In this document: one piece after another, positions 9,101-56,985 of the stretch
Position numbering within the stretch: the stretch's first letter is position 1
Layout of the letters: each line of letters starts with the position of its first letter
From: Argopecten irradians
Taxonomy: Eukaryota; Mollusca; Bivalvia; Pectinida; Pectinidae
Length of the DNA stretch: 64,000 nt
Assembly (NCBI RefSeq): GCF_041381155.1
Contig: NC_091139.1
Span: forward strand, 8,866,383-8,930,382
Direction of reading: 5' to 3'
Position numbers and translations under genes: made by a program
The notes under the pieces: model-generated
The model's database searches: none
Told to the model about the DNA's origin: nothing
What the model saw: the letters and a program-made list of their open reading frames with translations, nothing else

Positions 9101-12100
9101 TCAAAGTAAGTATAGCTTACAATATATCCTACCTGTAATATACATTATATGTAATACATCCAAACATCAAGTTAACAAGATATTTCTGGTTTGTCTTGGT
9201 ATATATGTGACCTTGCTGAGTTCAGTGCTCCTGGTTAATGTGACCGTGACCTTGCTTACATCTATATAAATTGTTGAAAAATCTTTGACAGGTCAAAGCA
9301 GGATAAGGCGAGATTAAAAGAAGAATACGACAGACGGCAGGGAGACAAAGAGCTTCTCAACATGGTCGTTATAGGTAACTATTGAAGTTTAACAGTCTGT
9401 TTAATGTTTTTCTATTGGCATAGGTTTGAGATTCTATTTCTCTCAATCACATTATTTTAACTTTGAAGTTTAAAATTCTACGTCTCTCAATTGCATGATT
9501 TTAACTTTGAAGTTTAAGATTCTATTTCTCTCAATCGCATTATTTTAGCTTTGCCGTACTGGTGTGGAATGATAGAGTAATCTATGAACTTGTGTCCTGA
9601 ACAGGCCATGTCGATGCTGAGAAGATAATATAGTGTAACATGTCTAAACCAGATGACAGGCATTCAGATTAGACAAGGATTGGTTTTGTTAAGTTATACA
9701 GTTATTACGAACCTCTGGGGACCATGAAAATAACTTCGGTATAAGCATAATTCGTTATATGTATATAACATAGTATCAGAAATATTTAGGTTAAATTTGT
9801 TATATGAAGTACAATAAAAATCTAAAAGAGATATTTCCTCTTTATTACATTAAAAATGTGTTTGTAAATGACATATATAGAGGTTACACAATGAGTTGTT
9901 GTTGAATAATGAATTTATTTCACACGAGTGAGTTATTTTTTAAAAGTTATAAAAGACACGAGCTTTAGCGAGTGTTGAATAAATTCAATATTCAACAACC
10001 ACGAGTAGTGTGACCTGTTTCTACCACAATTATATTCAGTTTTAGCCGATAGAAATACGGCAGGGATACGGAAACGTGTATTTAACGAAATATCCAAATA
10101 TGGTACAGTAGTAATCTTTGTGTTCGACAGGCCATGTTGACGCTGGGAAGAGTACCCTGATGGGCCATTTGTTATTCCAGTTAGGCATGGTTAACAAAAA
10201 GGCAATGCATAAATATGAACAGGAATCTAAGAAGGTTGGTAAAGGCTCCTTCGCCTTCGCCTGGGTGCTGGACGAGACCGAGGAGGAGAGGTTAGTCATT
10301 CGAAATTAGAAATGTTTATGGATTGCGTTGTAGGATATTTGTTCAACTTCTTGGGGAAATTCTGTTTTATGAAACTATATATGAGCCCTTCTAAACGAGG
10401 ACAATAATGTTCAGACAGATGACCCCAGGGTGCCCTGACCCTGACAAAGTACAGATGTATGTATATATTTGTTGTGATACACAAATATTTAGGCATCTTA
10501 ATACAATTTTTATGCAGGGGGTGGGGGGAGTATTTGTACTGTGAAGCAAACAAAAAATGGAAATATAGATGTGGAATTTACTTGATTTCGGTAAGTTTAG
10601 ATCATGTTAGTGTGTTAGATGATTCTATTTCCTAATGTGTAGATCTGATGTTACCATGGGTATTATAATATTCATCTCAGCTGCCAACTTTTTGTATACA
10701 GATCTCGTGGTGTTACCATGGATATTGCTCAGACAAAGTTTGAAACTCCAAAGAAAGCTGTAACTCTGTTGGACGCTCCAGGACACAAAGACTTTATCCC
10801 CAATATGATAACAGGTAAATATCACTACACTGATGTAATACAGGCACAATGTATATCTAGTGAATGTCAAAATTTGTTAAGTTTACAAAGCTCTATCATG
10901 GCTTTTTGTACAAGGAACTAACCCCCTCCTCCGCCACACAGTGATGCAACTATACATACAATACATCCTGTGCCGTCCTGTCTGGATTTGGTACGTGGAG
11001 GCTGTGGCGGTTGAGTGGTTAAGATGTCTCAACATATTACCACATGCCTTCCACCCCTGGGTCGCAAGCTCGAACCTTATGTGGTGCAGTTGCCAGCTAC
11101 TGACCGTAGGTCATTGGTTTTTCTCCGAGTATTGTAGCTTTCCTCCACCAATAAACCTGGTATATCCTTACCTGACTCTGGCTGTTAATAGAATGTTTAA
11201 TTAATAATAACTAATAAACTAAAAAACGTGGAGGCAGGGTTACATATGTCTCTGTACTTTCATTTCTAAGCATTAGTTTCTCATGATAGTTTAGATAGAT
11301 TGGTTGTGAAGAGATGAGATGAGATGAAGTTTCCATACAAAGTGTTTGTATATAAAGTATTGAGTTATCACAATTCAATGCACAAAAAGTTCTACCTTTC
11401 AAGATATTTCCTTTTGTGTTTACAGGGACAGCCCAGGCTGATGTTGGTATCCTGGTAGTGAACGCTGCCCGCGGGGAGTTTGAGACTGGCTTTGAGACGG
11501 GCGGTCAGACTAGAGAACACGCACTACTGGCCAGATCATTGGGTAGGTTCGGAATAGACAAGAATATTAACAGTGCAATATAGGTAATGGTTTCTAGATT
11601 CCTAGAGTCTTCTTTACCTGATAGGAACTATTTATTGTCCTTGATATTAATAATTAACATTGAAATTATTGGTAAAAGATGGAAATAATTAGATTAGATT
11701 TACTACATGTACCATATTTGACCCAATAAGCGCCAAGTGCATTTAAAAAATTGAAAAAATAAAAAGGCGCTTAATAAGATGAAATTGTTGCATAGGAAAG
11801 TGAATACCTATACAGTTTTGATAGTTTTGGTCTTTATGTATGCACGGGCAATTAAAAATGAGGACTCAAAAGGAGGAGGAGTGCTTATAGGGACATGTTT
11901 GAATTTGACACAAATATTTACGTTTACGTGCTATATCTATTGGAAATGGGAGAAATGGGTATATTTCAAGGGATGTTGTAAAAGTTTCTTTGAGAAATGT
12001 CACAATTGATGCATGAACAATATTAGAAAAATTTGAATTTGTCTTGATCATCCTTCAAACTCATCAGATTTCATTAAAGTACCACCCTAAACTTGATTTA

Positions 12101-15100
12101 ATTAACTTTATTCTTACCTGCGACTTTTAACAGGTGTGTCACAGTTAATTGTAGCGGTAAATAAAATGGACACAGTCAAATGGTCACAGGAGAGGTATGA
12201 CGAGGTGACAAAGAAACTCGGATCTTTCCTGAAGACAGCGGGATACCGAGATACGGACATATCCTACATCCCGTGTAGTGGTCTAAGTGGAGAAAACCTG
12301 GCCAAGGCCGTGTCTGAGCCTCAGCTTTCCGCCTGGTATCGGGGAAGCACGCTGGTGGAACAGATAGGTATATTTATGATGATTGCTAACTATTACATAT
12401 TTATTATCTAAGAACATGATTGTGTTTTAGGCGGCTTTTAGCTTTTAAAGATATGATAAAGTTTCAGTACTTATTTATAATGGCTTATAATACCAGGATT
12501 TTGAGGTACTAAAATGATGTGGGCCCTGTATGATTAGTCCAACCTTCCGCCGATTAACATGTGTGATAAAAAAAATCTCTTCAAAAATATGAAGTCACAA
12601 TCGCTAGAAGCTGGGATTTATCTACGGTAATCGTACTTTACCAACATCTCCAAATACTGTGGCATTACATACACTTAAGAGCAATTGAACAATGTCACCA
12701 TATACATTTGTCTTTTATCACATAACTGGTCCATTGAGCCTTTCATAAATATCATAAGACACGTGTAATCACACCATTGTTATTTCACAGGTAATAATGA
12801 CGTCGTGTTCAATATATGACGTCGCAGGATTGTCTCCATGGACTAAAACATAAAATCTGCATGAGCCTATTTCTACTTGTTTATATAGAGATTGAATTAA
12901 ATGTTTTACTTATATTTCTATTAATAAAAGTTATATGATAGTTAGAATCTTACCATTGTATCTATGTAATATGAAATTTATCAAACTTGTTGAATAGTTT
13001 AATATGCCACTCGCCGAGTCTTTATACTTTGATGGACTAAAGCTTGTGACATATCAAATTATTGAACTTGTTTAATAAATTTCATATCACATAGCCACTC
13101 ACATAAAGATTTTATATATATATAGTATTTCTGCAGTGTATAATGAAATAGATCATCATTTGTTTATTTCATCTAAATGATGTTTCACATTAAATTGTAG
13201 ATAAGTTTAAGACGGTGACCCGTCAGTTGGACAAGCCCTTACGTCTGACTGTAGGGGACGTATTCAAAGGGATGGGAGCCGGGTTCAGTGTGACTGGCCG
13301 AGTAGGAGCCGGGTCAGTCCAGACAGGGGATAAGGTCCAGGTCATGCCGTACGGGGAAATGGCCACTGTCAAAGGTATGTTAGAACAGGTAGTATGTATT
13401 TCTGTGTTTCATTATCAATTGAGTCTTATATATCCCAAATGCTGAGTTTGTTGTGGACTTTTGACAGATTGAAATGGAACCACGACAAAACACTAAGTGT
13501 GTTCAGAAACAAATATTTCATATAACTGGTAGTCAGATGTATATAAACTTTACTCCAGGAGATCATATTTTCTCATGAAGCTTAACTTTTTCTGTAATGG
13601 AGAGAATTTTGCTACTACATACAATTTTGAATTCACCTTAGATGTCTTCAACCGTGTTTGTATTTTGGGTAATAAAAACCTTTTGGTTCTCCAGTGTAAT
13701 TAGGACAGATGTTAAAAACTTGGAACAATCGTGAGATGTTTGAGAAGGAGGAAGGCCTCTAAAATCACTTGATAATGTCTGTATTTATCAAAGGAAATCT
13801 ATCATCATGATAATTACCTACACAGGCAATATTTCTTTACATGAAGTTTTTTACATGAATTTCACATGAAGAAATATTGAATTTCACATCAAGAAATATT
13901 GCCTGTATAGACTTTAATTAATAAATGTTTTGATGTTTGATTGGTATCTGTTACAGGTGTGATGTTATTTGATTGGTATTTGTTACAGGTGTGATGTTAG
14001 GAGACCTGTCGGCAATGTGTGCATTCGCTGGGGACCATGTGACCTTGACTTTAACGGGCATTGACATGACCAACGTCAGTTTAGGTTTGTCTGTCTTCTA
14101 CATTTATCTCGGCTAAATAAGGATGATTAAATCGTTTGTTGTCTTGTCAAAACATTCTGACACTCTGTCTAATTGCAATGTGTGTATGATTGATGTGTAC
14201 ATCCTAATTCATTGATTGAGTATAACTGGTTCATTTTGTAGTTGATTTGATTTCTGGAAATGAAATGGTCTCCTGCTTGACCTGATGGGTTTCTCTCCAG
14301 GTTTTGGTTTCATCTCCGTTGATGTAAATAGGAAATTGAAACATTTTCTTTGGAGGATATCTTCTCCTCCCATACAGTAAAACCTTTATCCAGCTATGGT
14401 GTCATACATGTTGATTTACTTGCCTGTTTCTTTTTATCTTGACAGGAAGTGTAGTTTGTGATCCAGCCAATCCAATCCACTGTGCCACGAGGATCCGTGC
14501 TAGAGTTGTGCTATTTAACTTAGAAATTCCTGTTACCAAAGGATTTATGGTAGGTCTACCAGACATTGTTGGAGGGTGTGGCGGGGGGTTTAATTCATTG
14601 TTAATGAATTAATTGTGGAGGATATAAATGCTGACATCAATGTAAATTAAAAATTTGCCATTGAACATACACAGCAGCTTCCTTATTTATTCTGTATGAC
14701 TACACAGTTACTGGCAAGTGGATGAACAACCTTAAGCTTAGTTGTGTAGTTCATAAAAGTCTGAAAAAATGATATTTGATTCAGACATATTTTATCGCAA
14801 CTTTCATTTAAAATGAAATTTAGGCACAACTTAAAACGTTTCTCCATGTTATCAAGGAAAAGATTCATGTTATAAGTTTGAAAATTTCACTAAGATAAAT
14901 ATCGACAAGAAAATTACGATAAAACGAATAAACATGTTCTTCAGTTAAGATATATTGATTTTAAATTATTTAGTAAAATATTTGTGTGACAGGTTGTGTT
15001 CCACTACCAATCCATTACTGAACCGGCCGTCATCAAACGGCTGGTTAGTCAGCTCAACAAAAGTTCAGGAGAGATTCTAAAAAACAAACCAAAGTAAGTA

Positions 15101-16286
15101 CCGGTAACATACAAAGTTCAGGAGAGATTCTAAAAAACAAACCAAAGTAAGTACTGATAACATACAAAGTTCAGGAGAGATTCTAAAAAACAAACCAAAG
15201 TAAGTACCGGTAACATACAAAGTTCAGGAGAGATTCTAAAAAAAAACAAACCAAAGTAAGTACCGGTAACATACAAAGTTCAGGAGAGATTCTAAAAAAC
15301 AAACCAAAGTAAGTACCGGTAACATACAAAGTTCAGGAGAGATTCTAAAAAACAAACCAAAGTAAGTACCGGTAACATACAAAGTTCAGGAGAGATTCTA
15401 AAAAACAAACCAAAGTAAGTACCGGTAACATACAAAGTTCAGGAGAGATTCTAAAAAACAAACCAAAGTAAGTACCGGTAACATACAAAGTTCAGGAGAG
15501 ATTCTAAAAAACAAACCAAAGTAAGTACCGATAACATACAAAGTTCAGGAGAGATTCTAAAAAACAAACCAAAGTAAGTAACATACATACATATAGTGTT
15601 ATAGGATTTCCCCTCATTTTCATTTGAATGCAGTGTATTGTAAATGCTGTTCAGCTGAACATAATTTATATTATTTTAGTAATTGTTGTCAGAATGATCA
15701 AATTTATACAGTTCAGTCGATCAAATTTTGAGGTAGAAATTTAAGAATATGACCAAGAAACCACAAAAAGAAACAGGACAGACACTGTTTACTCTGCTAC
15801 CATGAAAATTATCTGATGTTATAAAGATTGTTTAATTGCTGTACACATATTTTTTTTATTAGTATCCCAGTTTTGCTAACAACTGTATATAGTATTATAT
15901 CTGGTACATTGAGATGTGTTTCCTATGTAGGTGTCTAACAAAGAACTCCAGTGCTGTGATAGAGATCGAGTTTGAGCGACCAGTCTGTCTTGAGCTGTAT
16001 AAAGATTTTAAAGACCTTGGGAGATTCATGTTGCGGTATAGTGGTTCTACAATAGCGGCCGGTTTGGTGGAAGAGGTAAGGGGTCAAAGTACTTGGACAG
16101 ATATCGATCTAGATTTGATTTTCAATATTGATTCAGTGAATATTATGGAAATGAGGAAACCATGGTTAACCTTACTTAAGAATTTTACAAAAATTCAGAT
16201 TTTTATATTAATGGCTGTCTATTATGTTGCAGATCCTAAAAAGCAAAATGAAAGCAGACGACACACAAGGTGCTTCAGCATACTGA
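115..16286 (+). CDS. HBS1L: HBS1L, HBS1-like translational GTPase (5' end outside window)
   Basis: HBS1 is an EF-1A/eRF3-family GTPase that works with Pelota (Dom34) in the cytoplasm to rescue stalled ribosomes in no-go and non-stop decay. Exons that join in frame with GT-AG borders: 115-168, 8775-9105, 9292-9374, 10131-10290, 10702-10814, 11426-11542, 12134-12367, 13201-13374, 13989-14084, 14446-14549, 14993-15093, 15931-16075, 16233-16286 (TGA at 16284), about 587 codons. All GTPase motifs are visible: GHVDAGKST (G1, starts exon 10131), RGVTMDI (switch I), DAPGH (G3), NKMD (G4, exon 12134) and SGLSG (G5). Two beta-barrel domains follow, ending in [17 protein letters not shown]. The N-terminal exons lie upstream of the window. 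Lengths and phases close perfectly, so the gene looks intact. Several of its splice junctions are duplicated (separate entries). Confidence 0.95.
648..2107 (+). CDS. HBS1L: Alternative terminal exon of HBS1L, Ski7-like short isoform
   Basis: A long exon opens after the AG at 646-647 and reads about 485 codons to a TAG at 2105-2107. The exon at 115-168 ends in phase 1 (one G left over). Both this exon (G|GC GAT) and the GTPase exon at 8775 (G|AT TTT) accept that phase, so the transcript can either end here or skip to the GTPase. In other animals the short HBS1L isoform made this way acts as the Ski7 equivalent, bridging the cytoplasmic exosome and the SKI complex. The protein is Ser/Lys-rich and low in complexity, with about nine spaced copies of an S-L-x-x-L-A/T motif (for example VSLADLAGQ and LSLADLAKS). 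A conserved-looking tail carries [12 protein letters not shown] and ends [11 protein letters not shown]. Isoform function is inferred from gene architecture; the exon itself is clear. Confidence 0.78.
2634..2639 (+). terminator. Candidate poly(A) signal for the short HBS1L isoform
   Basis: An AATAAA hexamer lies about 530 bases after the TAG of the alternative terminal exon, inside the intron of the long isoform. It is a suitable place for intronic polyadenylation. Other A-rich hexamers lie further downstream, so which is used is not known. Confidence 0.4.
2803..2908. repeat. Short palindromic MITE-like element
   Basis: Two arms of about 38 bases, starting near TATAGCACAGGGACCTGGCA and mirrored at 2868-2908, flank an AT-rich centre. 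The flanks are TATA-rich, as expected for a TA target duplication. It is a non-autonomous inverted-repeat element or foldback; no coding capacity. Confidence 0.6.
3016..3199 (+). mobile_element. tRNA-derived SINE
   Basis: The head resembles a tRNA promoter: an A-box-like stretch in CCTTGGCCGAGTGGTC, then a B-box-like GGGTTGCGAGTTAGAATCC. The body contains the motif TTTTTCTCTGGGTACTACTG followed by a cytosine-rich CTTTCTTCCACCAACAAACC block. A second, diverged copy lies at 10,994-11,215 in another intron of the same gene, with the same order of parts. It is not a functional tRNA because the acceptor stem does not close. Confidence 0.7.
3193..3412. repeat. MITE-like inverted-repeat element (CTCGATACTCCAGG family), copy 1
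   Basis: The left end reads CTCGATACTCCAGGAGTTCC and the right end is its inverted form (CCGTGGAATATCGAGG). Inner arms pair across GTAAAACTGAAGGCAAC and its complement. The same family recurs at 8065-8372, 22,795-22,932, 50,005-50,292, 51,240-51,345 and 53,318-53,600, so it is a dispersed non-autonomous family. Confidence 0.6.
4896..7089 (+). repeat. Composite dispersed repeat of the GGTGACC / GGGGCCAAAAGG type
   Basis: The block opens with GTCTCATGGTGACCTATT and closes with GGCCTGTAGGCCTCTTGTTT. Between them, a module of about 300-400 bases occurs about four times, each containing GGGGCCAAAAGGGGT, AAAATTTCAAAAATCTTCTT and a statement like GTGAATTATATGACCCTGGG. I know this style as a common, probably non-autonomous repeat of mollusc genomes; its class is uncertain. 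A TTAA-flanked inverted-repeat element (5708-6498) is nested in it, so that insertion is younger. Confidence 0.6.
5708..6498. mobile_element. TTAA-flanked inverted-repeat DNA element (non-autonomous), nested
   Basis: The ends AGGGACATGAAC and GTTCATGTCCCT are perfect inverted repeats, bounded on both sides by TTAA (5704-5707 and 6499-6502). TTAA target duplication is the hallmark of piggyBac-type transposition. The 791-bp interior has no long reading frame, so it would depend on a transposase elsewhere. It sits inside the dispersed repeat at 4896-7089. Confidence 0.75.
8065..8372. repeat. MITE-like inverted-repeat element (CTCGATACTCCAGG family), copy 2
   Basis: The left part (GATAATGCAGTGGTTACTAT) is mirrored on the right by GATAGTAACCCCTGGAGTAT. 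Inner arms include AAAACTGAGGGCATTTCAAG. It lies in the HBS1L intron just before the exon at 8775. Confidence 0.55.
9424..9553 (+). repeat. Short tandem repeat of about 60 bp in an HBS1L intron
   Basis: Slightly over two copies of a unit containing GATTCTATTTCTCTCAATC and TTAACTTTGAAGTTTAA. The array begins about 50 bases after the donor at 9375. Confidence 0.65.
9601..9633 (+). pseudogene. Decayed copy of the start of the HBS1L P-loop exon
   Basis: After an ACAG, this reads GCCATGTCGATGCTGAGAAG, matching the first bases of the true exon at 10,131 (GCCATGTTGACGCTGGGAAG) with three differences. Two are silent wobble changes. In the exon's frame it would encode GHVDAEKII and then stop, so the P-loop is spoiled. 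It is an intronic relic of a duplication of the 3' splice junction plus exon start; beyond about 30 bases the similarity ends. Confidence 0.6.
10641..10664 (+). pseudogene. Probable decayed copy of the start of the switch-I exon of HBS1L
   Basis: AGATCTGATGTTACCATGGG is followed by TATT and resembles the true exon start at 10,702 (ATCTCGTGGTGTTACCATGG, then ATATT), with a gap of about three bases. It lies 59 bases upstream of the real junction and keeps an AG before the copied part. Short match, moderate confidence. Confidence 0.45.
10994..11215 (+). mobile_element. tRNA-derived SINE, second copy
   Basis: A-box-like GTGGCGGTTGAGTGGTTAAG is followed by B-box-like GGGTCGCAAGCTCGAACCTT. The body then has GGTTTTTCTCCGAGTATTGT and TTTCCTCCACCAATAAACC, in the same order as the copy at 3016. 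The tail is AT-rich with repeated TAATAA. It is in the HBS1L intron after exon 10702-10814. Confidence 0.7.
12965..13095. repeat. Foldback MITE-like element in an HBS1L intron
   Basis: An arm with ATGAAATTTATCAAACTTGT is mirrored by ACTTGTTTAATAAATTTCAT, with shorter internal mirrored blocks. No coding potential. A related AT-rich stretch with CACGAGTGAGTT and its partner lies at 9,900-10,015. Confidence 0.5.
13823..13904. repeat. Small inverted repeat
   Basis: CAGGCAATATTTCTT and its exact complement AAGAAATATTGCCTG close a loop of about 50 bases containing repeated TTTCACAT. It could form a stem in the pre-mRNA, just upstream of a duplicated acceptor. Confidence 0.55.
13925..13988 (+). repeat. 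Duplicated 3' splice site of the HBS1L exon at 13,989
   Basis: A 32-bp unit containing TTTGATTGGTATCTGTTACAG plus the first exon bases GTGTGATGTTA occurs twice, with AG at 13,956 and 13,988. Only the second acceptor continues the protein ([10 protein letters not shown]). Use of the first would read [12 protein letters not shown] and then a stop. Confidence 0.85.
15059..15585 (+). repeat. Minisatellite built from an HBS1L exon-donor junction (53-bp unit, about 10 copies)
   Basis: The unit holds the last coding bases of exon 14993-15093 (from AAAGTTCAGGAGAGATTC to AACAAACCAAA), the donor GTAAGTACCGG and ten intronic bases, then repeats. Copies are nearly identical; one has extra A residues near 15,240. 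Only the first donor (15,094) preserves the reading frame: reading through it gives AAG TAA at once. The low divergence suggests recent amplification. Confidence 0.9.
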
Positions 16287-35019: not shown

Positions 35020-38000
35020 ATGGCTTTAAAAGGTTTTCAATTTGTTTTTACTGTGCTTGCATTGAAGGTAATTAAATTTCAGTATTATGGTTGAATCAGG
35101 AATTTAATTACTTTTTAATTTGTCAATTTAATTATTACTTTATTTTTGTACAATTATTATCTTTAATCTTCACACAGGAAATAGAGTTTAAACAATGGTT
35201 AATATGTTTTAAGAAGATTTCAATGATCTAATATTGAAACAATAAAATCAAATTTTGAACAGCAATGATTTACGAAGCGACGAAGACATCAGCAAATATA
35301 ATTTTCTACTATTAAGGAGATATAGACTCTCAAACATATTTACATCTTTTAAAGATCATTGACGTTGAGTGTAAAGGGAAACTGGCCGTGGAATTGGTGG
35401 AATTCCACAACAAAGATGGACTGGACATCAATGGTCAGTGTTGTGACGGGGTCAATATACCCACGTGTCCATTGGAGAAGTGTGACCACCGCTTTACCAT
35501 ATGTGCCGGTGACCAGCCCGCGTAAGGAACTCTAATTTTGCATAAAAAGTTATTAAAGAATGATTCGTGCGTACTGATGATATAACAAATATTTTCAATT
35601 TTAACGCGTTTCTATATAATCATGTACCTTTATATTTATCACGTTGTTCCTTTCAGAATGAACTTTACAGACGACAGTTGTATATATGGTAGAGAAGATT
35701 TTAACGCTCTAGACAATGAGAATGATTTATATTTTACTGCAGGCAGATCATCTCTGTTTAGCTTTGATACATGGAAGGTAAGTACTGCAACGTGAACTCA
35801 CAATGAATTATTCATCTTGTAAACTTTGAAAGTTGATACCGACCCGTAGGATCTCACCTCAATAACATAAAGATCTATTCGAGTCATTGTTTTCCTATTC
35901 AGTCTATATCGCCAATCAGTAATGGTATGTCTATTTTATGAGAGGATTACATTGATTTCATTTTTTAAGGTTTCAAAATTGATTAATGTCAGGTTACTGG
36001 TAATGCTCGTTAAAAGTGATTTTCCTGTAGTTATCGCAATATTTATTCAATGATGAAAGAGAAAACAGTTGTGTGTGGAGGTTCAATTTTTGAAGGTGCT
36101 AAATAACTTTTGTCATTTGAAACAATTAACATCAGTATCCGTACTAATAATGTAAAACTTATGTAAAATCTTTAGGATGATATAATTGATTTTTTTTTGT
36201 TTAGGGATGGGCCTCTATATCTGTGTTGGTGACAGATTCAGACAGTGATGGACTGGTACCGGTCGATAACCTTTACCTAAACTTTACCAGCCTTATACCT
36301 GGCTTTAACTCAACAACAGACTACAAATCCACCTACACCCTGCTTGGTAACAGGGCCAACAAGCCCACCAGGTAAGTTTATAACAGCCGTAACAGAGTCA
36401 AATATCCTACCAAGAAAATTAACAACAGAATACAAATCAACTTACACCCAGCTTGGTGACAGGGCAACTATTCCACCAGGAAAGTTTATAAAAGATTACA
36501 AATCCACCTACACACGGTATGGTAACAGGGTCAACTATCCCACCAGGTAAACTATTACTTTGGAAGCATTTAAAATGATGTGAAAATGTTCCACGTGGTT
36601 ATTCCGTAGGTGCCAAAGAACATATAGTATATTACTATTATCATCGGAACAGTATTTTTGAGCTAAAATGACTGTTTAAGGAAATAAAAACACGATTCGG
36701 AGAGCGGTAACAAGATAGATGGTTGTTGAATATAATATTTATTTCAAATTACTGCATGTATGACAATGCATTTTGAAACTATTTAACAATTTAAACGCGC
36801 TCCGTATAATGATGTTGTTACAATGAATTACAACTGGTACCAATCCAAAAAAATGCATGATTGAATGACTGCCGGAGCGTAGTTATAAAAGGATGCCGAG
36901 GAAGTAGTTCGGGTCTGCAGAATATCCACCAATCAAAAGACCGTTTTGTTTAAAGATTTCTTAGACTGTTAATATTTTTATAATTATAGGTTGTTGATGA
37001 AAGTGAAGGTGTATTGTGACCCCCATTACTATGGTGATGACTGTTCAGTCAACTGTGTCAGTGATAACGCCTGTGACGGCCATTATACGTGTGATAATAA
37101 AGGTCGCAAGGTGTGTAACTCTGGATGGAAGGGAGATAACTGTGATATTATGGTACCAGGAGGGGTAGCCGACTGCAGTGTATATCAAGGTAATTTTATA
37201 ATCTTTAATTTTCATGGCGTAATCGGGTCAACCCTTCATAGGACGTCTAATTAAGTTAATAAAGGTATATTAACTTTTGTTAAATGACTTTGAGTTTTGC
37301 CGTTTTCTGATTGATCTAGATTGGTTCAGAGGTTGACATTGCAAATCAGGTAACCTGGCTATATATAGACACAGGGAATTCCCCGTTTCTTCTACATTTT
37401 TAACCAATCAAAATAGAACATTGCCGATCATCAGGGAATAGCCAATATTTAGGCAAACATGGCAGACAACATTGCCAGGTAGGATTAGGAAAACTATTTT
37501 ACATGTTTAATGTAGCCATATGTTCGAAGATTACGTACAGTGTATATTATGAAGAAGTCCATCAGAAGTGCTAAAAGTACCTACTGATGATACTTGGATG
37601 AAGATTTTCTTGAATATTTGTTTAAATTATAGTCGTTATGTTTCCTTCCAAGGATGAGTGTCAATTTGGGTCCTCTGGTGGCCATGACCGACAAGCATTA
37701 TTTTTTGTTTGCATATACCCGGGGGTTAGGACATCATGATATGACGTATGATTAAGGTCAGGTCGGAGTCCCTTGTGAGTTATAGGGGGTTAAACATTAG
37801 GGGCAATTTTCTGTTTTGTCCCGTTTTGTTGGAACCAAATTATATTTCTGAATGTTTTTTTTATGAATTATAATGCATTTATGTTAAAAATAAATCATTT
37901 TGAAAAATATAACTTAGTGTCAAAAAATTCGTCACAGTGACTTAATTTTGTAAAATGTTAATCATGTAAGAAAAAATTGTATCTGGTACCATAATATACC

Positions 38001-41000
38001 AGAAAAAAAGTTATATATCATATTAGATTGTATCGAACAATACATTTTTATATCTCTCCCCCTGCCCCCCAATCCTTTCTAATCCACATTATTCTTTGCC
38101 TAAGTGTGTAATATGCAAATATATTGCTTTATGCAATATAATATAATGTATATAGCATTTTGTCAGGTATGTTATGGCACCAGACGAACTTTGTTCTTAA
38201 ATAATTGACATTTTACAAAATAAGGTCACTTGGACCTATTTTTGACACTAAGTTGTATTTTCCAAAATCTTTAAATTTCAACATATAAATGCATTATAAT
38301 TCATAAAAAATAATTCAAATATATAATTTGGTTCGAACAAAACGGGACAAAACAGAAAATTGCCCATCCTGTTTAACCCCCCATAACTCACAAGGGGCTC
38401 CGACCTGACCTTAATAATATGTCATATCATGATGTCCTATCCTCTGGGTATCTGTAAACAAAAAATAATGCTTATCGGTCATGGCCACCAGAGGGCCCAA
38501 ATTGACACTGATCCTTTGTTTTTTTTCAAAGAGGCATCATTTCATATAACAAAACAATTATTGACTTTTTGTAGTTAAATAAGAGGAATTGTTAAACTTG
38601 AGAAAGGTTAACATTTCCTCGTATTAACCTAATACCTAATGCATAATGTACTACACTTGTTACAAAAACAAAAACGAAAAAAAAACCGAGTTATATACTA
38701 CATCATTTAGTGTGTAAGCATTCACTTTTCCTTTTTTCAATCGTGAAAAAAGCGAAAACCGTTTAAGCCACTACAATGTATAAATCGGTGATGCGTGGAA
38801 CTATTGAAGACCAAACGACGTTTCTTCTATATCTTAACATTAACTCGTTCTAAACGAATTCAACCACTGTGGAGAAGGTTTAACTGTCGTATAATAAGAT
38901 CCCCATATTTTTCATACAGATACAAATATTTAATTAATTCTCACCTTCTTACAATAAATGATCTTGTTACAAAAGTATACATAAAACACCGTATTGCAAA
39001 AGCCACTCTATTTTCTTCTTCTATTTTTGCACTTTTAAAACTAATAAACTATTTAAAAAAATGATGTTTCAACTTTTAAGTAAACTTTACATACAGGTTC
39101 TAGAATTTTTAAGGTATTAAATTTTGTGTGTTAAAATTACATAAAAAGTAATATTGTGCGCATTAAAACATTTTAAAGATATATCAAATTATTAAGACAG
39201 GTTGAAATATCACATAGGCTATTCTTAATGAGACACCAGTCTGATATTACATTAAATGCTGTAAGTCTTCTTCCTTCTTTACTATCTGCGCCAAATTATT
39301 AGCAGTGTGATTGCATATTCCGAATTTGCATATTACAGAGTTAACTGCACTTGCAGGTAGGTATTGATTGTGACGTCATGTGTTTGCGAGCTTAACGTCA
39401 TACGTTTCGGAGAAAACGACGTAAATTGCGCTAACAAAATAATGACGTAACAATCGATACCTACCCGCAAGGGAGCTAACTCTGTAATATGCAAAGACAG
39501 AATAGCCTAATACATATGGTTGTTGTATACATAGATAGGACAGAGTTTGTACCAAGCATTTGGGAAGGTCAGTACCAATGCCCCGGAGAACCATCACAAA
39601 ACTTTGTGCTGAACGTCAAACGGTCTAGTGGATACATCGCTCTTGTGGCAGATATGACCATCCAGTCCGTTGTCATAGCACTTTCTGGGACGTATGCCAG
39701 TTCCTTTAAGATTCTGACTCTCTCCAGGGCCAAACACTAGTACCACAGGAGATCGGGGGAAGGAACCTTACAAAGTTGGAACTTAACCTGCAAGAAAACA
39801 AGCCAATTGAAATGACTGGAAATATATTTATAAACACCGAAAGCTGTTCTATCCTTCGTCTTGTAAGGACGCATGGTAAGGATGAAATTATAGATGGCGT
39901 GCTAGGGTATTCAGATTAGCAAGGGGAAACGGTTATATCAGGACTTAGACCTAATTTAAACTAGCGATATTTTGTATATTCATATATCATTTATTAGGTG
40001 TACTTGAACATAACTAAGTTGATAAAAAGTGTGCATGCATCAGACCTAACATCAGGTATTACTGTTGATTCGTAGATTGTTGTGTTGTTTGGAAATTTTG
40101 CCAAAATAGCACATTATTGTACATTTCAGTTTAAGAAGTCCAGTTGGTTCAGAACCTATAGTATATTTATTATTTATTAAAAGTTTGACTAGTACATATT
40201 TGTATATTGTGATTGAGGATATGATGATATTTATATCTCTTCTGTTATGATATAAATTGTGAACAAAAACATTCACATTATGTATTAATTCTGCATGTAA
40301 AGTATGGATTCGTCATGAAATGGGTGTATGCTATATTTTGTATCCTTCTGTTTTGATAATGTTTTGAATATCATCTTGTTTCAGCTTACTTTGGTGGCTG
40401 TAATATGCAGGGTACCTGTATACGATATGGAAGTCAGAAAGATCAGTATTACTGCTGTTGTAATTATGGTAAGTTATAGTGTACCTGTGTACGATATGGA
40501 AGTCAGAAAGATAAGTTTTACTGCTGTTGTAATGATGGTAAATTATAGGGTACCTGTGTATAATGGTAAGTTATAGGGTACCTGTGTATAATGGTAAGTT
40601 ATAGGGTACCTGTGTATAATGGTAAGTTATAGGGTATCTGTGTATAATGGTAAGTTATAGGGTACATGAATATAATGGTAAGTTATAGGGTACCTGTGTA
40701 TAATGGTAAGTTATATGGTACCTGTGAATAATGGTAAGTTATAGGGTACCTGTGTATAATGGTAAGTTATAGGTTACCTGTTTGTAATGGTAAGTTATAT
40801 CAGGTACCTGTGTACAATGGTTAGTTATAGTGGGTACCTGTGTATCATGGTAAGTTATAGGGTACCTGTGTATATCATGGTAAGTTATAGGGTACCTGTG
40901 TATCATGGTAAGTTATAGGGGTTACCGGTGTACCTGTATTGTATATGGTAAGTTATACGGTACCTGTGTTGTAATGGTAAGTTATAGGATACCTGTGTAT

Positions 41001-44000
41001 CATGGTAAGTTATAGGGTACCTGTGTATCATGGTAAGTTATAGGGTAGTGTATAGGGTTACCTGTTTGTAATGGTAAGTTATAGGATACCTGTGTATCAT
41101 GGTAAGTTATAGGGTACCTGTGTATCATGGTAAGTTATAGGGTACCTGTGTATAATGGTAAGTTTATACTGGGTAAGTTATAGGGTACCTGTGTATAATG
41201 GTAAGTTATAGGATACCTGTGTATCATGGTAAGTTATAGGGTACTGTGTAAATGGTAAGTTATAGGGTACCTGTGTATAATGGTAAGTTATAGGGTACTG
41301 TGTATCATGGTAAGGTTATAGGGTACAGTGTGTATAATGGTAAGTTATAGGGTACCTGTGTATAATGGTAAGTTATAGGGTACCTGTGTATAATGGTAAG
41401 TTATAGGGTACATGTGTATAATGGTAAGTTATAGGGTACCTGTGTATAATGGTAAGTTATAGGGTACCTGTGTATAATGGTAAGTTATAGGGTACCTGTG
41501 TATAATGGTAAGTTATAGGGTACCTGTGTATAATGGTAAGTTATAGGGTACCTGTGTATAATGGTAAGTTTATAGGGTACCTGTGTATAATGGTAAGTTA
41601 TAGGGTACCTGTGTATAATGGTAAGTTATAGGGTACCTGTGTATAATGGTAAGTTATAGGGTAATGTGTATAATGGTAAGTTATAGGGTACCTGTGTATC
41701 ATGGTAAGTTATAGGGTACTGTGTATATGGTAAGTAAGGGTACTGTGTATATGGTAAGTTATAGGGTACCTGTGTATCATGGTAAGTTATAGGGTACCTG
41801 TGTATAATGGTAAGTTATAGGGTTCCTGTGTATAATGGTAAGTTATAGGGTACCTGTGTATAATGGTAAGTTATAGGGTACCTGTGTATAATGGTAAGTT
41901 ATAGGGTACCTGTGTATCATGGTAAGTTATAGGGTACCTGTGTATAATGGTAAGTTATAGGGTACCTGTGTATAATGGTAAGTTATAGGGTACCTGTGTA
42001 TAATGGTAAGTTATAGGGTACCTGTGTATAATGGTAAGTTATAGGGTACTGTGTATAATGGTAAGTTATAGGGTACCTGTGTATCATGGTAAGTTATAGG
42101 GTACCTGTGTATACATGGTAAGTTATAGGGTACCTGTGTATAATGGTAAGTTATAGGGTACCTGTGTATAATAAGGTAAGTTATAGGGTACCTGTGTATA
42201 ATGGTAAGTTATAGGGTACCTGTGTATCATGGTAAGTTATAGGGTACCTGTGTATAATGGTAAGTTATAGGGTACCTGTGTATAATGGTAAGTTATAGGG
42301 TACCTGTGTATAATGGTAAGTTATAGGGTACCTGTGTATAATGGTAAGTTATAGGGTACCTGTGTATAATGGTAAGTTATAGTACTGTGGTATGGTAAGT
42401 TATAGGTTTTAAGTTATAGGGTACCTGTGTATAATGGTAAGTTATAGGGTACCGTGTGTATAATGGTAAGTTATAGGGTACCTGTGTATAATGGTAAGTT
42501 ATAGGGTACCTGTGTGTAAGTTATGGTAATGGTAAGTTATAGGGTACCTGTGTATATGGTAAGTTATAGGGTACCTGTGTATCATGGTAAGTTATAGGGT
42601 ACCTGTGTATAATGGTAAGTTATAGGGTACCTGTGTATAATGGTAAGTTAAGTTATAGGGTACTGTGTAATGGTAAGTTATAGGGTACCTGTGTATCATG
42701 GTAAGTTATAGGGTACCTGTGTATAATGGTAAGTTATAGGGTACCTGTGTATAATGGTAAGTTATAGGGTACCTGTGTATCATGGTAAGTTATAGGGTAC
42801 CTGTGTATAATGGTAAGTTATAGGGTACCTGTGTATAATGGTAAGTTATAGGGTACCTGTGTATAATGGTAAGTTATAGGGTACCTGTGTATAATGGTAA
42901 GTTATAGGGTACCTGTGTATAATGGTAAGTTATAGGGTACCTGTGTATAATGGTAAGTTATAGGGTACCTGTGTAAATGGTAAGTTATAGGGTACCTGTG
43001 TATAATGGTAAGTTATAGGGTACCTGTGTATATAATGGTAAGTTATAGGGTACCTGTGTATATGGTAAGTTATAGGGTACCTGTGTATAATGGTAAGTTA
43101 TAGGGTACCTGTGTATAATGGTAAGTTATAGGGTACCTGTGTATAATGGTAAGTTATAGGGTACCTGTGTATAATGGTAAGTTATAGGGTACCTGTGTAT
43201 AATGGTAAGTTATAGGGTACCTGTGTATAATGGTAAGTTATAGGGTACCTGTGTATAATGGTAAGTTATAGGGTACCTGTGTATAATGGTAAGTTATAGG
43301 GTACCTGTGTATAATGGTAAGTTATAGGGTACCTGTGTATAATGGTAAGTTATAGGGTACCTGTGTATATACATGGTAAGTTATAGGGTACCTGTGTATA
43401 ATGGTAAGTTATAGGGTACCTGTGTATAATGGTAAGTTATAGGGTACCTGTGTATAATGGTAAGTTATAGGGTACCTGTGTATAATGGTAAGTTATAGGG
43501 TACCTGTGTATCATGGTAAGTTATAGGGTACCTGTGTATAATGGTAAGTTATAGGGTACTGTGTATAATGGTAAGTTATAGGGTACCTGTGTATAATGGT
43601 AAGTTATAGGGTACCTGTGTATAATGGTAAGTTATAGGGTACCTGTGTATAATGGTAAGTTATAGGGTACTGTGTATAATGGTAAGTTATAGGGTACCTG
43701 TGTATAATGGTAAGTTATAGGGTACCTGTGTATAATGGTAAGTTATAGGGTACCTGTGTATAATGGTAAGTTATAGGGTACCATGTGTATAATGGTAAGT
43801 TTATAGGGTACCAGTGTAAAATGGTAAGTTATAGGGTACCTGTGTATAATGGTAAGTTATAGGGTACATGTGTATAATGGTAAGTTATAGGGTACCTGTG
43901 TATCATGGTAAGTTATAGGGTACCTGTGTATAATGGTAAGTTATAGGGTACCTGTGTATAATGGTAAGTTATAGGGTACCATGTGTAAATGGTAAGTTAT

Positions 44001-46660
44001 AGGGTACTGTGTATAATGGTAAGTTATAGGGTACCTGTGTATAATGGTAAGTTATAGGTACCTGTGTATAATGGTAAGTTATAGGGTACCTGTGTATAAT
44101 GGTAAGTTATAGGGTACCTGTGTATCATGGTAAGTTATAGGGTACCTGTGTATAATGGTAAGTTATAGGGTACCTGTGTATAATGGTAAGTTATAGGGTA
44201 CCTGTGTATAATGGTAAGTTATAGGGTACTTGTGTATAATGGTAAGTTATAGGGTACCTGTGTATAATGGTAAGTTATAGGGTACCTGTGTATAATGGTA
44301 AGTTATAGGGTACCTGTGTATAATGGTAAGTTATAGGGTACCTGTGTATAATGGTAAGTTATAGGGTACCTGTGTATAATGGTAAGTTATAGGGTACCTG
44401 TGTATAATGGTAAGTTATAGGGTACCTGTGTATAATGGTAAGTTATAGGGTACCTGTGTATAATGGTAAGTTATAGGGTACCTGTGTATCATGGTAAGTT
44501 ATAGGGTACCTGTGTATAATGGTAAGTTATAGGGTACCTGTGTATAATGGTAAGTTATAGGGTACCTGTGTATAATGGTAAGTTATAGGGTACCTGTGTA
44601 TAATGGTAAGTTATAGGGTACTTGTGTATAATGGTAAGGTATAGGGTACCTGTGTATCATGGTAAGTTATAGGGTACCTGTGTATAATGGTAAGTTATAG
44701 GGTACCTGTGTATAATGGTAAGTTATAGGGTACATGTGTATAATGGTAAGTTATAGGGTACCTGTGTATCATGGTAAGTTATAGGGTACCTGTGTATAAT
44801 GGTAAGTTATAGGGTACCTGTGTATAATGGTAAGTTATAGGGTACCTGTGTATAATGGTAAGTTATAGGGTACCTGTGTATAATGGTAAGTTATAGGGTA
44901 CCTGTGTATAATGGTAAGTTATAGGGTACCTGTGTATAATGGTAAGTTATAGGGTACATGTGTATAATGGTAAGTTATAGGGTACCTGTGTATCATGGTA
45001 AGTTATAGGGTACCTGTGTATAATGGTAAGTTATAGGGTAGTTATAGGGTACCTGTTTGTAATGGTAAGTTATAGGATACCTGTGTATCATGGTAAGTTA
45101 TAGGGTACCTGTGTATCATGGTAAGTTATAGGGTACCTGTGTATAATGGTAAGTTATAGGGTACATGTGTAAATGGTAAGTTATAGGGTACCTGTGTAAT
45201 AATGGTAAGTTATAGGGTAACTGTGTATAATGGTAAGTTATAGGGTACCAGTGTAATATGGTAAGTTATAGGGTACCAGTGTAAAATAGTAAGTTATAGG
45301 GTACCTGTGTATAATGGTAAGTTATAGGGTATCTGTGTATAATGGTAAGTTATAGGGTACCTGTTTGTAATGATAAGTTATAGGGTACCTGTGTATAATG
45401 GTAAGTTATAGGGTACCTGTTTGTAATGGTAAGTTAAAGGGTACCTGTGTATAATAATAAGTATTAGGGTACCTATGTATAATGGTAAGTTATATGGTAC
45501 CTGTGTATAATGGTAAGTTATGGGGTACATGTGTATAATGGTAAGTTTATAGGGTACCTGTGTATAATGGTAAGTTAAAGGGTACCTGTGTATAATGGTA
45601 AGTTATAGGGTACCTGTGTATAATGGTAAGTTATAGGGTACCTGTGTATAATGGTAAGTTATAGGGTACCTGTGTATAATGGTAAGTTAAAGGGTACCTG
45701 TGTATAATGGTAAGTTATAGGGTACATGTGTATAATGGTAAGTTACAGGGTACCTGTGTATAATGGTAAGTTATAGGGTACCTGTGTATCATGGTAAGTT
45801 ATAGGGTACCTGTGTATCATGGTAAGTTATAGGGTACATGTGTATAATGGTAAGTTATAGGATACCTGTGTATAATGGTGAGTTATAGGGTACCTGTGTA
45901 TAGTATTTGGCGCGCTTTCTGTTATGTACGTCACATTGACAAAAATGACGTCACTGTCGCTATTTGCAATGTTCACTGGCAAACAGGCTGTATGCGGATA
46001 ACGTTTTGCAAAATCAAATGTCATGATTTGGAAACTCAAATGCCGACGAATTTACAAACACAACAAAAAACCAGAGCAATCAACCAACGAAATACGCAGT
46101 AATTTCTACCTGGAATGTGCATAGACGCCCCCATCAATGACCTTTCTTCCGTAGACGTGGTTGCACTCGTTTAAAGAAATTGTTATTGTTGATCGTACAT
46201 AATTGTTTGTCCTATAATTTTACTATTTTCTTCAATCCGTTATGTACCAAAAACATTATTACCTTCTATTGAGGACACCATGTGGTCTTAAAGTGTTTTC
46301 TTGGGATGTCATAGTACCCTCGACCACACTATAAGACTTTAGTGCCCTCAAACGAAAACCATAATATATAAATGATTAGTTAGATAGCTGTTTTCTTTTG
46401 ATCACCAATCTTACAATTTAATAAGAAATCTATCGGCGTTTTATTCTGTTACATTAGTCATGTCTTGAACAATCACTAAAATATTATGTTATATTCATAA
46501 TTCTAAAGAAAATGTTAACTTTTCAGGTACCCAAGGTACATCATGTTCTCAAACCACCAAGAGCCCCCAAACCACACCTTCTAAACCAAACCAACCACGC
46601 CCACAACCACGTCCACAACTACGTCAGCAGCCACGCCCATAAACACATCATTGTACAATG
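35020..46660 (+). CDS. Secreted or membrane Notch-ligand-like protein (MNNL + DSL domains), partial
   Basis: Exons 35020-35067 (signal peptide, MALKGFQFVFTVLALK), 35355-35521, 35657-35777, 36205-36371, 36990-37189, 39544-39875, 40385-40468 and 46527-46660. Exons 2-4 resemble the N-terminal MNNL domain of Delta/Jagged (KLAVELVEFHNKDG, CCDGVNIPTC). Exon 5 is a DSL domain: YCDPHYYGDDCSVNC, GHYTCDNKGRKVC and GWKGDNC give the full six-cysteine pattern. Exon 39544 (acceptor after GGACAG) encodes a beta-rich segment (FVLNVKRSSGYIALVAD), then appears to change frame near 39,720-39,740 before ending RLVRTH at a GTAAGG donor in the right phase. Exon 40385 gives part of an EGF-like module (GGCNMQGTC, YYCCCNYG) completed by GTQGTSC in exon 46527. 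That exon then becomes Thr/Pro-rich and also seems to change frame. No run of EGF repeats or membrane segment is visible, so this is not a canonical Delta. The two frame changes may be errors or decay. Confidence 0.8.
36319..36549 (+). repeat. Tandem copies of an exon-donor junction in the DSL-domain gene
   Basis: The end of exon 36205-36371 (GACTACAAATCCACCTACAC to CCCACCAG, then GTAAGTTTATAA) is repeated at 36,429-36,494 and 36,495-36,549. A shorter degenerate piece lies near 36,395-36,420. The junction reads GTAAGT in the first copy, GAAAGT in the second and GTAAAC in the third. Retaining sequence beyond the first donor reads AGG TAA, an immediate stop. The copies are clearly older than those at 15,059. 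Confidence 0.85.
37650..38517. mobile_element. Long foldback element, arms of about 310 bp
   Basis: The left arm (37,650 to about 37,960) starts AAGGATGAGTGTCAATTTGG. The right arm (about 38,205 to 38,517) is its inverted copy, with the same internal words in reverse (AACGGGACAAAACAGAAAAT, CATGGCCACCAGAGG). The arms are roughly 85-90 % alike by eye and the centre is AT-rich. No transposase is encoded. It lies in the intron after the DSL exon and would form a long hairpin if transcribed. Confidence 0.8.
39325..39495. repeat. MITE with long inverted ends, copy A
   Basis: The ends begin TTTGCATATTACAGAGTTA and pair over about 55 bases through GGTAGGTATTGATTG and GACGTCAT, with only short unique sequence inside. 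A second copy is at 53,833-53,996. The right end lies less than 50 bases before the acceptor of the exon at 39,544. Confidence 0.75.
40411..45903 (+). repeat. Splice-donor satellite: 69-bp junction duplication, then about 190 copies of a 28-bp unit
   Basis: The last 58 bases of exon 40385-40468 plus the first 11 of its intron are duplicated at a 69-bp period (starts 40,412, 40,481 and 40,550). From 40,550 the unit drops to 28 bp by loss of the internal exon bases. Each 28-mer keeps the exon-derived GGTACCTGTGTATAATG and the intron-derived GTAAGTTATAG, so most copies hold a consensus GTAAGT donor. The array fills almost the whole intron of about 6.06 kb. Variants include GTATCATGG for GTATAATGG in clusters, and units shortened to TACTGTG. 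It has stops in all frames. The copy number is estimated as length over period. Confidence 0.95.
45904..46526. other. Intron remainder between satellite and next exon
   Basis: Unique-looking sequence with GACGTCA words near 45,948. It ends in the acceptor AACTTTTCAG at 46,526. No coding content is supported. Confidence 0.4.
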
Positions 46661-46721
46661 GTAAGTTATAGAGTACCTATGTAAATATGAAAGTCAGAAA
46701 GATCAGTTCTACTGCTGTTCA
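46661..46721 (+). repeat. Outlying copy of the 69-bp splice-junction unit
   Basis: Immediately after exon 46527-46660, GTAAGTTATAGAGTACCTAT is followed by AAAGTCAGAAAGATCAGTTC and TACTGCTGTT. These match the exon 40385 end and its donor in the same order. The copy keeps the central exon bases that the 28-bp units have lost, so it descends from the earlier 69-bp stage. Confidence 0.8.
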
Positions 46722-52249: not shown

Positions 52250-52945
52250 GTTACTTATGTATTATACTAACTACTGCTGTGCATTAGAATTTCATATATA
52301 TTTTTATCATTTATCAATATTTCTAATGTATTATACTAACCACTGCTGTGTATTAGCATGTCATATATTTATTTATCATTTATCAATATTTCTAATGTAT
52401 TATACTAACTACTGCTGTGCATTAGAATTTCATATATTTTTTTTATCATTTATCAATATTTCTAATGTATTATTATAACTACTGCTGTGTATTAGCATGT
52501 CATATATTTATTTATCATTTATCAATATTTCTAATGTATTATACTAACTACTGCTGTGTATTAGCATGTCATATATTTATTTATCATTTATCAATATTTC
52601 TAATGTATTATACTAACTACTGCTGTGTATTAGCTTTTCATATATTTATTTATCATTTATCACTATTTCTGATGTATTATACTAACTACTGCTGTGTATT
52701 AGCTTTTCATATATTTATTTATCATTTATTAATATTTCTAATGTATTATACTAACTACTGCTGTGTATTAGCATGTCATATTTTTTGTCATTTATCAATA
52801 TTTCTAATGTATTATACTAATTACTGCTGTGTATTAGCATTTCATATATTTTTTATCATTAATTAATATTACTGATATATTATATTGAACACTGTTGTGT
52901 ACTGGTGTATTTCAAACATTCATTTATCATATATCAATTTTACTG
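52250..52945 (+). repeat. 69-bp minisatellite, about 10 copies
   Basis: Each unit has AATGTATTATACTAACTACT, GCTGTGTATTAG and TTTATCATTTATCAATATTTC. Two variant types (GCATTAGAATTTC and GTATTAGCATGTC) alternate in the first copies. The unit is a multiple of three, so long frames stay open by arithmetic. The last copy is degenerate. Confidence 0.9.
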
Positions 52946-56220: not shown

Positions 56221-56224
56221 TGGT

Positions 56225-56985
56225 TTATGTAAAACTAAAAGGTAAATTGGTGTACTTGTTTTGTGGTTTCTTGTAAAAGGTAAATTTTTGTACTTGTTTT
56301 GTGGTTTTTCTATGAAAATAAAAGGAAATTAGAAAGAAGTACCTGTTTAGGGGTTTCTGTAAAATAAGGGTAACTTGAAGTACCTGTTTAGGAGTTTCTG
56401 TAAATATAAAAGGTAACTTGTTGTATCTGTTTAGGGGTTTAAGTAAATAAAAGGAAATTTGAAGTACTTGTTTAGAGGTTTCTGTAAAATAAAAGGTAAC
56501 TTGTTGTACCTGTTTAGGGGTTTCTGTAAAATAAAAGGTAACTTGTTGTACCTGTTTAGGGGTTTCTGTAAAATAAAAGGTAACTTGTTGTACCTGTTTA
56601 GGGGTTTCTGTAAAATAAAAGGTAACTTGTTGTACCTGTTTAGGGGTTTCTGTAAAAATAAATGGTATGTTGTTGTACCTGTAATTTTGTATCTAACCTG
56701 TTTAGAGGTTTCTGTAAAATAAAAGGTAACTTGTTGTACCTGTTTAGGGGTTTCTGTAAAATAAAAGGTAACTTGTTGTACCTGTTTAGGGGTTTCTGTA
56801 AAATAAAAGGTAACTTGTTGTACCTGTTTAGGGGTTTCTGTAAAATAAAAGGTAACTTGTTGTACCTGTTAAGGGGTGTAAGTAAAATAAAAGGAAATTT
56901 GAAGTACCTGTTTAGGGATTTCTGTAAAATAAAAGGTAACTTGTTGTACCTGTTCAGGGGTTTCTGTAATTTTGTATCTAATAAG
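56225..56985 (+). repeat. 42-bp minisatellite, about 18 copies
   Basis: Units contain GTAAAATAAAAGGTAACTTG and TTGTACCTGTTTAGGGGTTT. The first copies are diverged, the central ones almost identical. The word GTAATTTTGTATCTAA occurs both at the right edge (about 56,967) and in the middle (about 56,681), so the edge was copied inside with a block of units. The period is a multiple of three and both strands stay open, but the frames are artefacts. Confidence 0.9.

Follow-up and report, generated by a model that had tools for sequence, protein, structure and literature searches.

In amphioxus, tandem duplications of exon-intron boundaries with a minisatellite-like form have been described as mirages (PMC3087553, PMC3902484). 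The BflGb6 mirage has six and three units in two haplotypes, with RT-PCR results that fit regular splicing, and mirages are reported to show length instability and, at Adh3, somatic instability (PMC3087553); PGBD5 was added as a further case, with troponin C cited (PMC3902484). The human ABCA7 intron-18 VNTR has a 25-bp unit in about 12 to 427 copies, with the exon 18 donor as its first GT. The donor of the next unit is described as occasionally used, retaining one 25-bp unit at a frequency unaffected by length, and VNTR length as altering exon 19 skipping (PMC5954066). Intron gain or growth via internal tandem duplication has also been described (Gao and Lynch 2009 and others, as cited in PMC3087553).

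The stretch of Argopecten irradians DNA analyzed here (64,000 nucleotides; hereafter the window) carries two arrays of related form, one in HBS1L and one in the DSL/Delta-like gene that follows it. In the DSL gene, the array starts at the canonical donor at 40469 and repeats that donor unit by unit, as the ABCA7 VNTR is reported to do, while exon-intron boundaries are spanned by 69-bp units at its left edge (40411-40548) and by 53-bp units from 15060 in HBS1L. Judged on its sequence, the DSL array is probably a donor-anchored intronic minisatellite of the mirage kind and a tolerated by-product of junction duplication; the HBS1L array, which repeats the pattern from a different exon, counts in favor of this reading. 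The likeness to the amphioxus cases described (Adh3, globins, troponin C, PGBD5) lies in boundary-spanning units, on the donor or acceptor side, and in the copied splice signals. Mirages reportedly splice normally, for which a possible scallop parallel is one predicted protein at the HBS1L array. Unlike amphioxus, where globin mirages are reported as a single duplicate or 3 to 6 units of about 150 to 160 bp and Adh3 units as 10 to 72 bp, the scallop has about 190 shrunken units, a mollusc host, and several cases in a single window. The ABCA7 VNTR differs in being human, with a C-rich unit and GT at the unit start, and no counterpart of the 69-bp exon-bearing scallop precursor is described for it in the PMC5954066 passages on the VNTR. 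With the type cited from Gao and Lynch, the scallop case shares internal duplication that copies splice signals, but here it is an existing intron that grows.

The earlier note on this DNA knew of no described satellite of this origin. That claim of novelty fails, since amphioxus mirages and the human ABCA7 donor VNTR were already described (PMC3087553, PMC3902484, PMC5954066). What is added to the known kind is the scale, the group of the host, and the presence of several cases within one window, and the mirage process would thereby be shown in a mollusc. Literature found under the name mirage concerned amphioxus only, and titles and abstract beginnings gave no bivalve report of duplicated splice sites within a coverage that leaves out most subscription journals. 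In place of satellite, the term used in the note, minisatellite is more fitting, with one locus seen within the window.

The two donor arrays

The protein from the joined DSL exons matched delta-like protein D [Argopecten irradians] (P0001) at 100% over 78% of the query, followed by proteins of Pecten maximus and Mizuhopecten among the five that passed in total, and Pfam placed MNNL and DSL domains in the product. The features of this locus were as follows.

35020-35067, 35355-35521, 35657-35777, 36205-36371, + strand: DSL coding exons 1-4
36990-37189, 39535-39875, 40385-40468, 46527-46642, + strand: DSL coding exons 5-8
40385-40468, + strand: exon 7, half of a Cys-rich EGF-like stretch and source of the repeat (tblastn with Pecten P0002, 40384-40476; acceptor and donor context)
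40469-40479, + strand: real donor of exon 7, GTAAGTTATAG (homologue continuity; divergence point of protein models)
40480-40548, + strand: second 69-bp junction unit, 58 exon-like bases and a weakened donor, GTAAATTATAG (direct repeat, 87% over 69 nt)
40535-45902, + strand: 28-bp minisatellite, consensus ATGGTAAGTTATAGGGTACCTGTGTATA (TRF, unit list, wrap-around alignment)
46527-46642, + strand: exon 8, where coding ends with TAA (homologous tails in Mytilus and Haliotis)
46658-46719, + strand: partial 69-bp form, with a donor and then exon-7-like sequence (tblastn KYESQKDQFYCC at 46683-46718)

Exon 7 ends in TGTAATTATG at 40468, and the donor begins at 40469 (ATG|GTAAGTTATAG). A Mytilus protein reads NDG-TIGTSC, comparable to NYG|TQGTSC at the join of exons 7 and 8, and the Pecten and Mizuhopecten protein models part ways directly past the same G at the end of exon 7. 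Intron 7 measures 6,058 bp, and the array makes up the majority of it. Exon 6 (39535-39875) was recovered by tblastn against Pecten as two pieces in different frames that meet near 39720, and the deposited protein P0001 stops at this frame break (...KILTLSRAKH), so that in the P0001 gene model the 28-bp array sits beyond the stop codon. Polymorphism, decay of the gene's end, and sequence error are all possible causes of the frame break. Searching with the Pecten protein gave no transcript-like relative revealing splicing at the 28-bp array, and first-donor use is what we infer there. Intron 5 holds an inverted repeat (37650-38516; 212-nt arms, 91% complementary, 443 nt apart) that looks like a foldback element.

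Wrap-around alignment from 40535 gave 192 units, each retaining only parts of the exon 7 sequence. The span 40469-45903 contains 185 GTAAGT, 182 GGTAAGT, and 165 copies of the 14-mer ATGGTAAGTTATAG, compared with 33, 8, and 1, respectively, on the + strand of the remaining window. Across 200 first-order Markov sequences of span length, GTAAGT occurred 1.7 times on average (maximum 5) at window composition and 20.7 times (maximum 31) at the array's own composition. The roughly 190 donors in one intron that the earlier note had counted are thus borne out. Its description of a series starting from the real donor holds in that 40469 comes first; the copy-2 donor, however, is weakened (GTAAAT at 40538, -5.3 kcal/mol), so a decoy as strong as the real donor first occurs at 40566, 97 nt downstream of it. 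The sole further ATGGTAAGTTATAG in the window, at 46658, also lies in the DSL gene; it opens the 69-bp-form fragment, which is situated past the stop codon in the last exon, about 6 kb from its source. Simple tandem growth does not account for this fragment, which counts against the mirage reading.

The gene upstream was identified as HBS1L (PDB 5lzw chain jj, E 6.6e-194) and carries the second array.

15060-15580, + strand: second donor array, 53-bp unit (34 exon and 19 intron bases) in about 10 copies (TRF 9.8 copies, 97% matches; unit list)

This array begins at the end of exon 14993-15093 and consists of ten units, the tenth of which has an altered tail; nine of its ten GTAAGT are decoys. 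Read-through beyond the donor hits a stop immediately in both arrays (NYGKL* in DSL, NKPK* in HBS1L). A 2,494-nt contig yields a predicted protein of 725 aa, P0006, that matches the 459-aa HBS1L query without a difference and crosses the exon join KNKPK|CLTK, joining the exons at the first donor, as one product among others that may exist. This supports, for the HBS1L array, the first-donor choice raised in the earlier note. Against the window, one residue of P0006 differs, in exon 8774-9105. The window exons for P0006 cover about 16 kb, a spread that points to spliced RNA as the origin of the contig, with a processed copy less likely; its source label, lgn, presumably denotes the Logan assemblies.

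Putative order of events

The left edge presents its stages in sequence, with exon and donor followed by a single 69-bp copy (87%) and then 28-bp units. Over the stretch compared, copy 2 reads CTCVRYGSQKDKFYCCCNDG and exon 7 reads GTCIRYGSQKDQYYCCCNYG. Pecten and three Mytilus proteins carry V at the I/V site and D at the Y/D site; the pair is V and N in Mizuhopecten, I and D in Haliotis, and I and I in Potamilus. With homologues that are not unanimous, the simplest reading is that copy 2 retained V and D, with the change in the live exon coming afterwards. Like copy 2, the 28-bp unit has CCTGTGTA, where exon 7 instead has CCTGTATA. The 28-bp unit corresponds to a 69-bp unit that lacks an internal stretch, the best alignment scoring 24-24.5 out of 28. 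Several breakpoints fit nearly equally, and a deletion between CTGT repeats is suggested by variants at the edge, among them CCTGTTTGTAATGG and CCTGTGTTGTAATGG.

The stepwise origin proposed in the earlier note, from donor to 69-bp copy, internal loss to 28 bp, and amplification, is supported by the sequence and the homologues. A tandem duplication across the exon 7 end and its donor would have created the 69-bp unit, and, with the first donor used and the mRNA therefore unaltered, the duplicate could drift within the intron. One unit would then have dropped about 41 internal bases while keeping both ends, including the donor, and slippage or unequal exchange would have taken the 28-bp unit to about 190 copies, accompanied by local homogenization and block duplication. 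The real donor would presumably be chosen as the first, closing the exon whose acceptor precedes 40385, with the decoys as passengers and the array as a tolerated by-product. A duplication within an exon alters the protein and one that spans the donor does not, provided the first donor is used; such a filter alone could explain the junction position of exon-derived arrays.

Variation among units was uneven. A 106-bp exact block occurs twice in the array, 3,991 bp apart. Events per unit numbered 1.40 in units 1-10 and 3.35 in units 11-30, then 0.63, 1.43 (units 61-90), 0.40, and 0.37 (the last two covering units 91-150) in the next four 30-unit blocks, and 1.45 and 1.18 in the final two blocks. 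The distribution follows an edge pattern mostly but not wholly: the low values in units 91-150 and higher ones toward both ends favor the mirage reading, while units 61-90 spoil the gradient and count against it.

Alternative readings of the DSL array

A function in binding U1 has arguments on both sides. Under this reading the array is a cis platform for U1 snRNP, defining exon 7 or shielding the transcript from early polyadenylation, or a U1 sink. The real donor at 40469 pairs with U1 at -9.1 kcal/mol, ranking fifth among the 19 donors of the two genes, and, with this donor counted, 185 of the 756 GT[AG] sites of the span attain that energy or better, compared with 31 in the other 58,565 bp of the window, or about 2.9 per array length. 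These sites are also predicted to be accessible, with a mean unpaired probability of 0.50 at 20 mid-array donor sites vs 0.34 at 18 other donors; masking of the decoys by RNA structure was accordingly considered and rejected, array donors being predicted to be at least as open as real ones. U1 bound downstream of a 5' splice site is reported to aid exon definition (PMC5933811) and U1 to suppress intronic poly(A) signals (PMC3826338), although cryptic donors are also reported to be capable of harm via intron retention (PMC8706089). The array itself contains neither AATAAA nor ATTAAA, P0001 ends upstream of it, and the donor half of the unit shows 43 distinct event types, about as many as the other half (44), leaving the U1 sink or premature polyadenylation role raised in the earlier note without support. 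We consider a U1 platform or sink decidedly unlikely. It is likewise unlikely that donor and acceptor arrays arise again and again in scallop genes through junction duplication and that the largest has turned into a cis U1 platform, either fixing the choice of the first donor or protecting the transcript.

Raw counts per unit half are less even than event types. The donor half has 20 substitutions vs 75 in the other, 17 deletions vs 36, and 45 insertions vs 28. The fewer donor-half substitutions could be read as constraint and were counted against the mirage reading; the excess in the other half is largely due to a few recurrent variants (A>C 27 times at one position, C>A 10 times at a second). 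Event types lend no apparent support to donor maintenance, at a power limited by homogenization. Good acceptors are scarce in the array, whose best YAG has 8 of 15 pyrimidines upstream, but this is within the 6-12 of real acceptors in these genes, a point against the mirage reading, and thus an absent acceptor cannot fully explain the presumed silence of the decoys. The locus offers a natural test of how splicing selects one donor among some 185 that are equal in predicted strength.

Other readings place the repeat before the intron, outside the gene, or in the assembly. Had the exon been tandemly repeated in frame, with part of it later becoming intron, the donor would derive from the exon start GTAATATGCAG. 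This accords with a unit of 69 bp, or 23 codons, with 7 of 11 matching bases between exon 40400-40410 and the donor in register, and with a copy 2 that is open in the exon frame save for TAG after each donor. A multiple of three nevertheless arises by chance one time in three, the Mytilus and Haliotis proteins pass directly from exon 7 to exon 8 without a repeat, and the Pecten and Mizuhopecten models diverge past the shared G as if the intron pre-existed, making an exonic repeat improbable. A dispersed satellite or element-borne repeat that came to sit at the exon 7 donor by chance is more doubtful still, indeed very unlikely, given that the only ATGGTAAGTTATAG of the window outside the array is in the same gene, that the left edge bears 58 bp of DSL's own exon, and that the HBS1L array was made from a different exon, that of its own gene. 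No exact match to 22 bases of the unit was present in prokaryotic genome contigs or viral contigs, a result with little bearing on scallops. The length of long arrays is easily misjudged in assembly, and one-base indels in many units together with the exon 6 frame break could point to an assembly artefact in array length or unit sequences. Private and shared unit variants and the structured left edge argue otherwise, and we hold an artefact to be highly improbable; the copy number may be wrong, and the existence of the array is unlikely to be. The mirage reading is preferred over all of these.

Junction copies across the two genes

Further copies of exon edges were found in the window.

36372-36571, + strand: two older copies of the DSL exon 4 end and donor, in intron 4 (edge-probe alignments)
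9593-9639, + strand: copy of HBS1L acceptor 10131 and exon start, about 525 bp upstream (edge-probe search)
10640-10664, + strand: copy of HBS1L acceptor 10702 and exon start, about 57 bp upstream (edge-probe search)
13936-13999, + strand: 32-bp tandem duplication, two copies, across HBS1L acceptor 13989 (TRF, probe test)

The DSL exon 4 copies have GAAAGT (36480) and GTAAAC (36547) at the donor positions and are roughly 85% alike, by hand count on the alignments. Exon-edge probes for the 19 donors and 19 acceptors of the two genes were each compared with 200 shuffles, and six of the 38 beat them all: HBS1L acceptors 3 and 4 and donor 11, and DSL donors 4, 7, and 6. DSL donor 6 scored 12 vs a shuffle maximum of 11, a score reached by 14 of 2000 shuffles, and was dropped from the count because it stood only narrowly above shuffles. 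HBS1L acceptor 8 (11 of 200 with an exon-only probe, 0 of 500 once intron bases were added) was counted because TRF finds it as well. The final tally was 6 of 38 junctions (HBS1L acceptors 3, 4, and 8 and donor 11; DSL donors 4 and 7), with both boundary types affected. The HBS1L exon ending at 9105 was negative in the junction test (92 of 200 shuffles), and its donor has a U1 energy of -7.5.

Among control probes, scores of 15 or more were reached by none of 31 exon-interior and 8 of 103 intron-interior probes, three of the latter within the 53-bp array and five in HBS1L intron 1 repeats; given these positives, junctions are not clearly richer in copies than introns at large, which counts against the mirage reading. 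In a post hoc permutation, three of six repeat footprints fell on junctions vs 0.61 expected (P = 0.016), a result that is a lead only; its input was 13 of 25 TRF rows, seven in the two gene spans, with the 28-bp row omitted as part of the 69-bp row. The range of similarity among copies, from about 97% in the 53-bp array to about 85%, suggests that junction duplications recur. Were the rate of 6 in 38, drawn from two genes only, to apply across the genome, junction duplication would rank among the ordinary ways in which introns grow.

Several other elements were observed in the window. A 486-aa open frame at 647-2107, near the HBS1L 5' exons, gave no Pfam hits; we take it to be possibly a Ski7-like alternative end, as known from vertebrate HBS1L. 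A 42-bp tandem array at 56222-56969 has a unit with a donor-like AAAAGGTAACT and an acceptor-like TTTAGG, and an unrelated 69-bp tandem repeat in about 10 copies occupies 52257-52938. Two similar stretches, at 3015-3190 and 10980-11170, have by eye the look of a tRNA-derived SINE.
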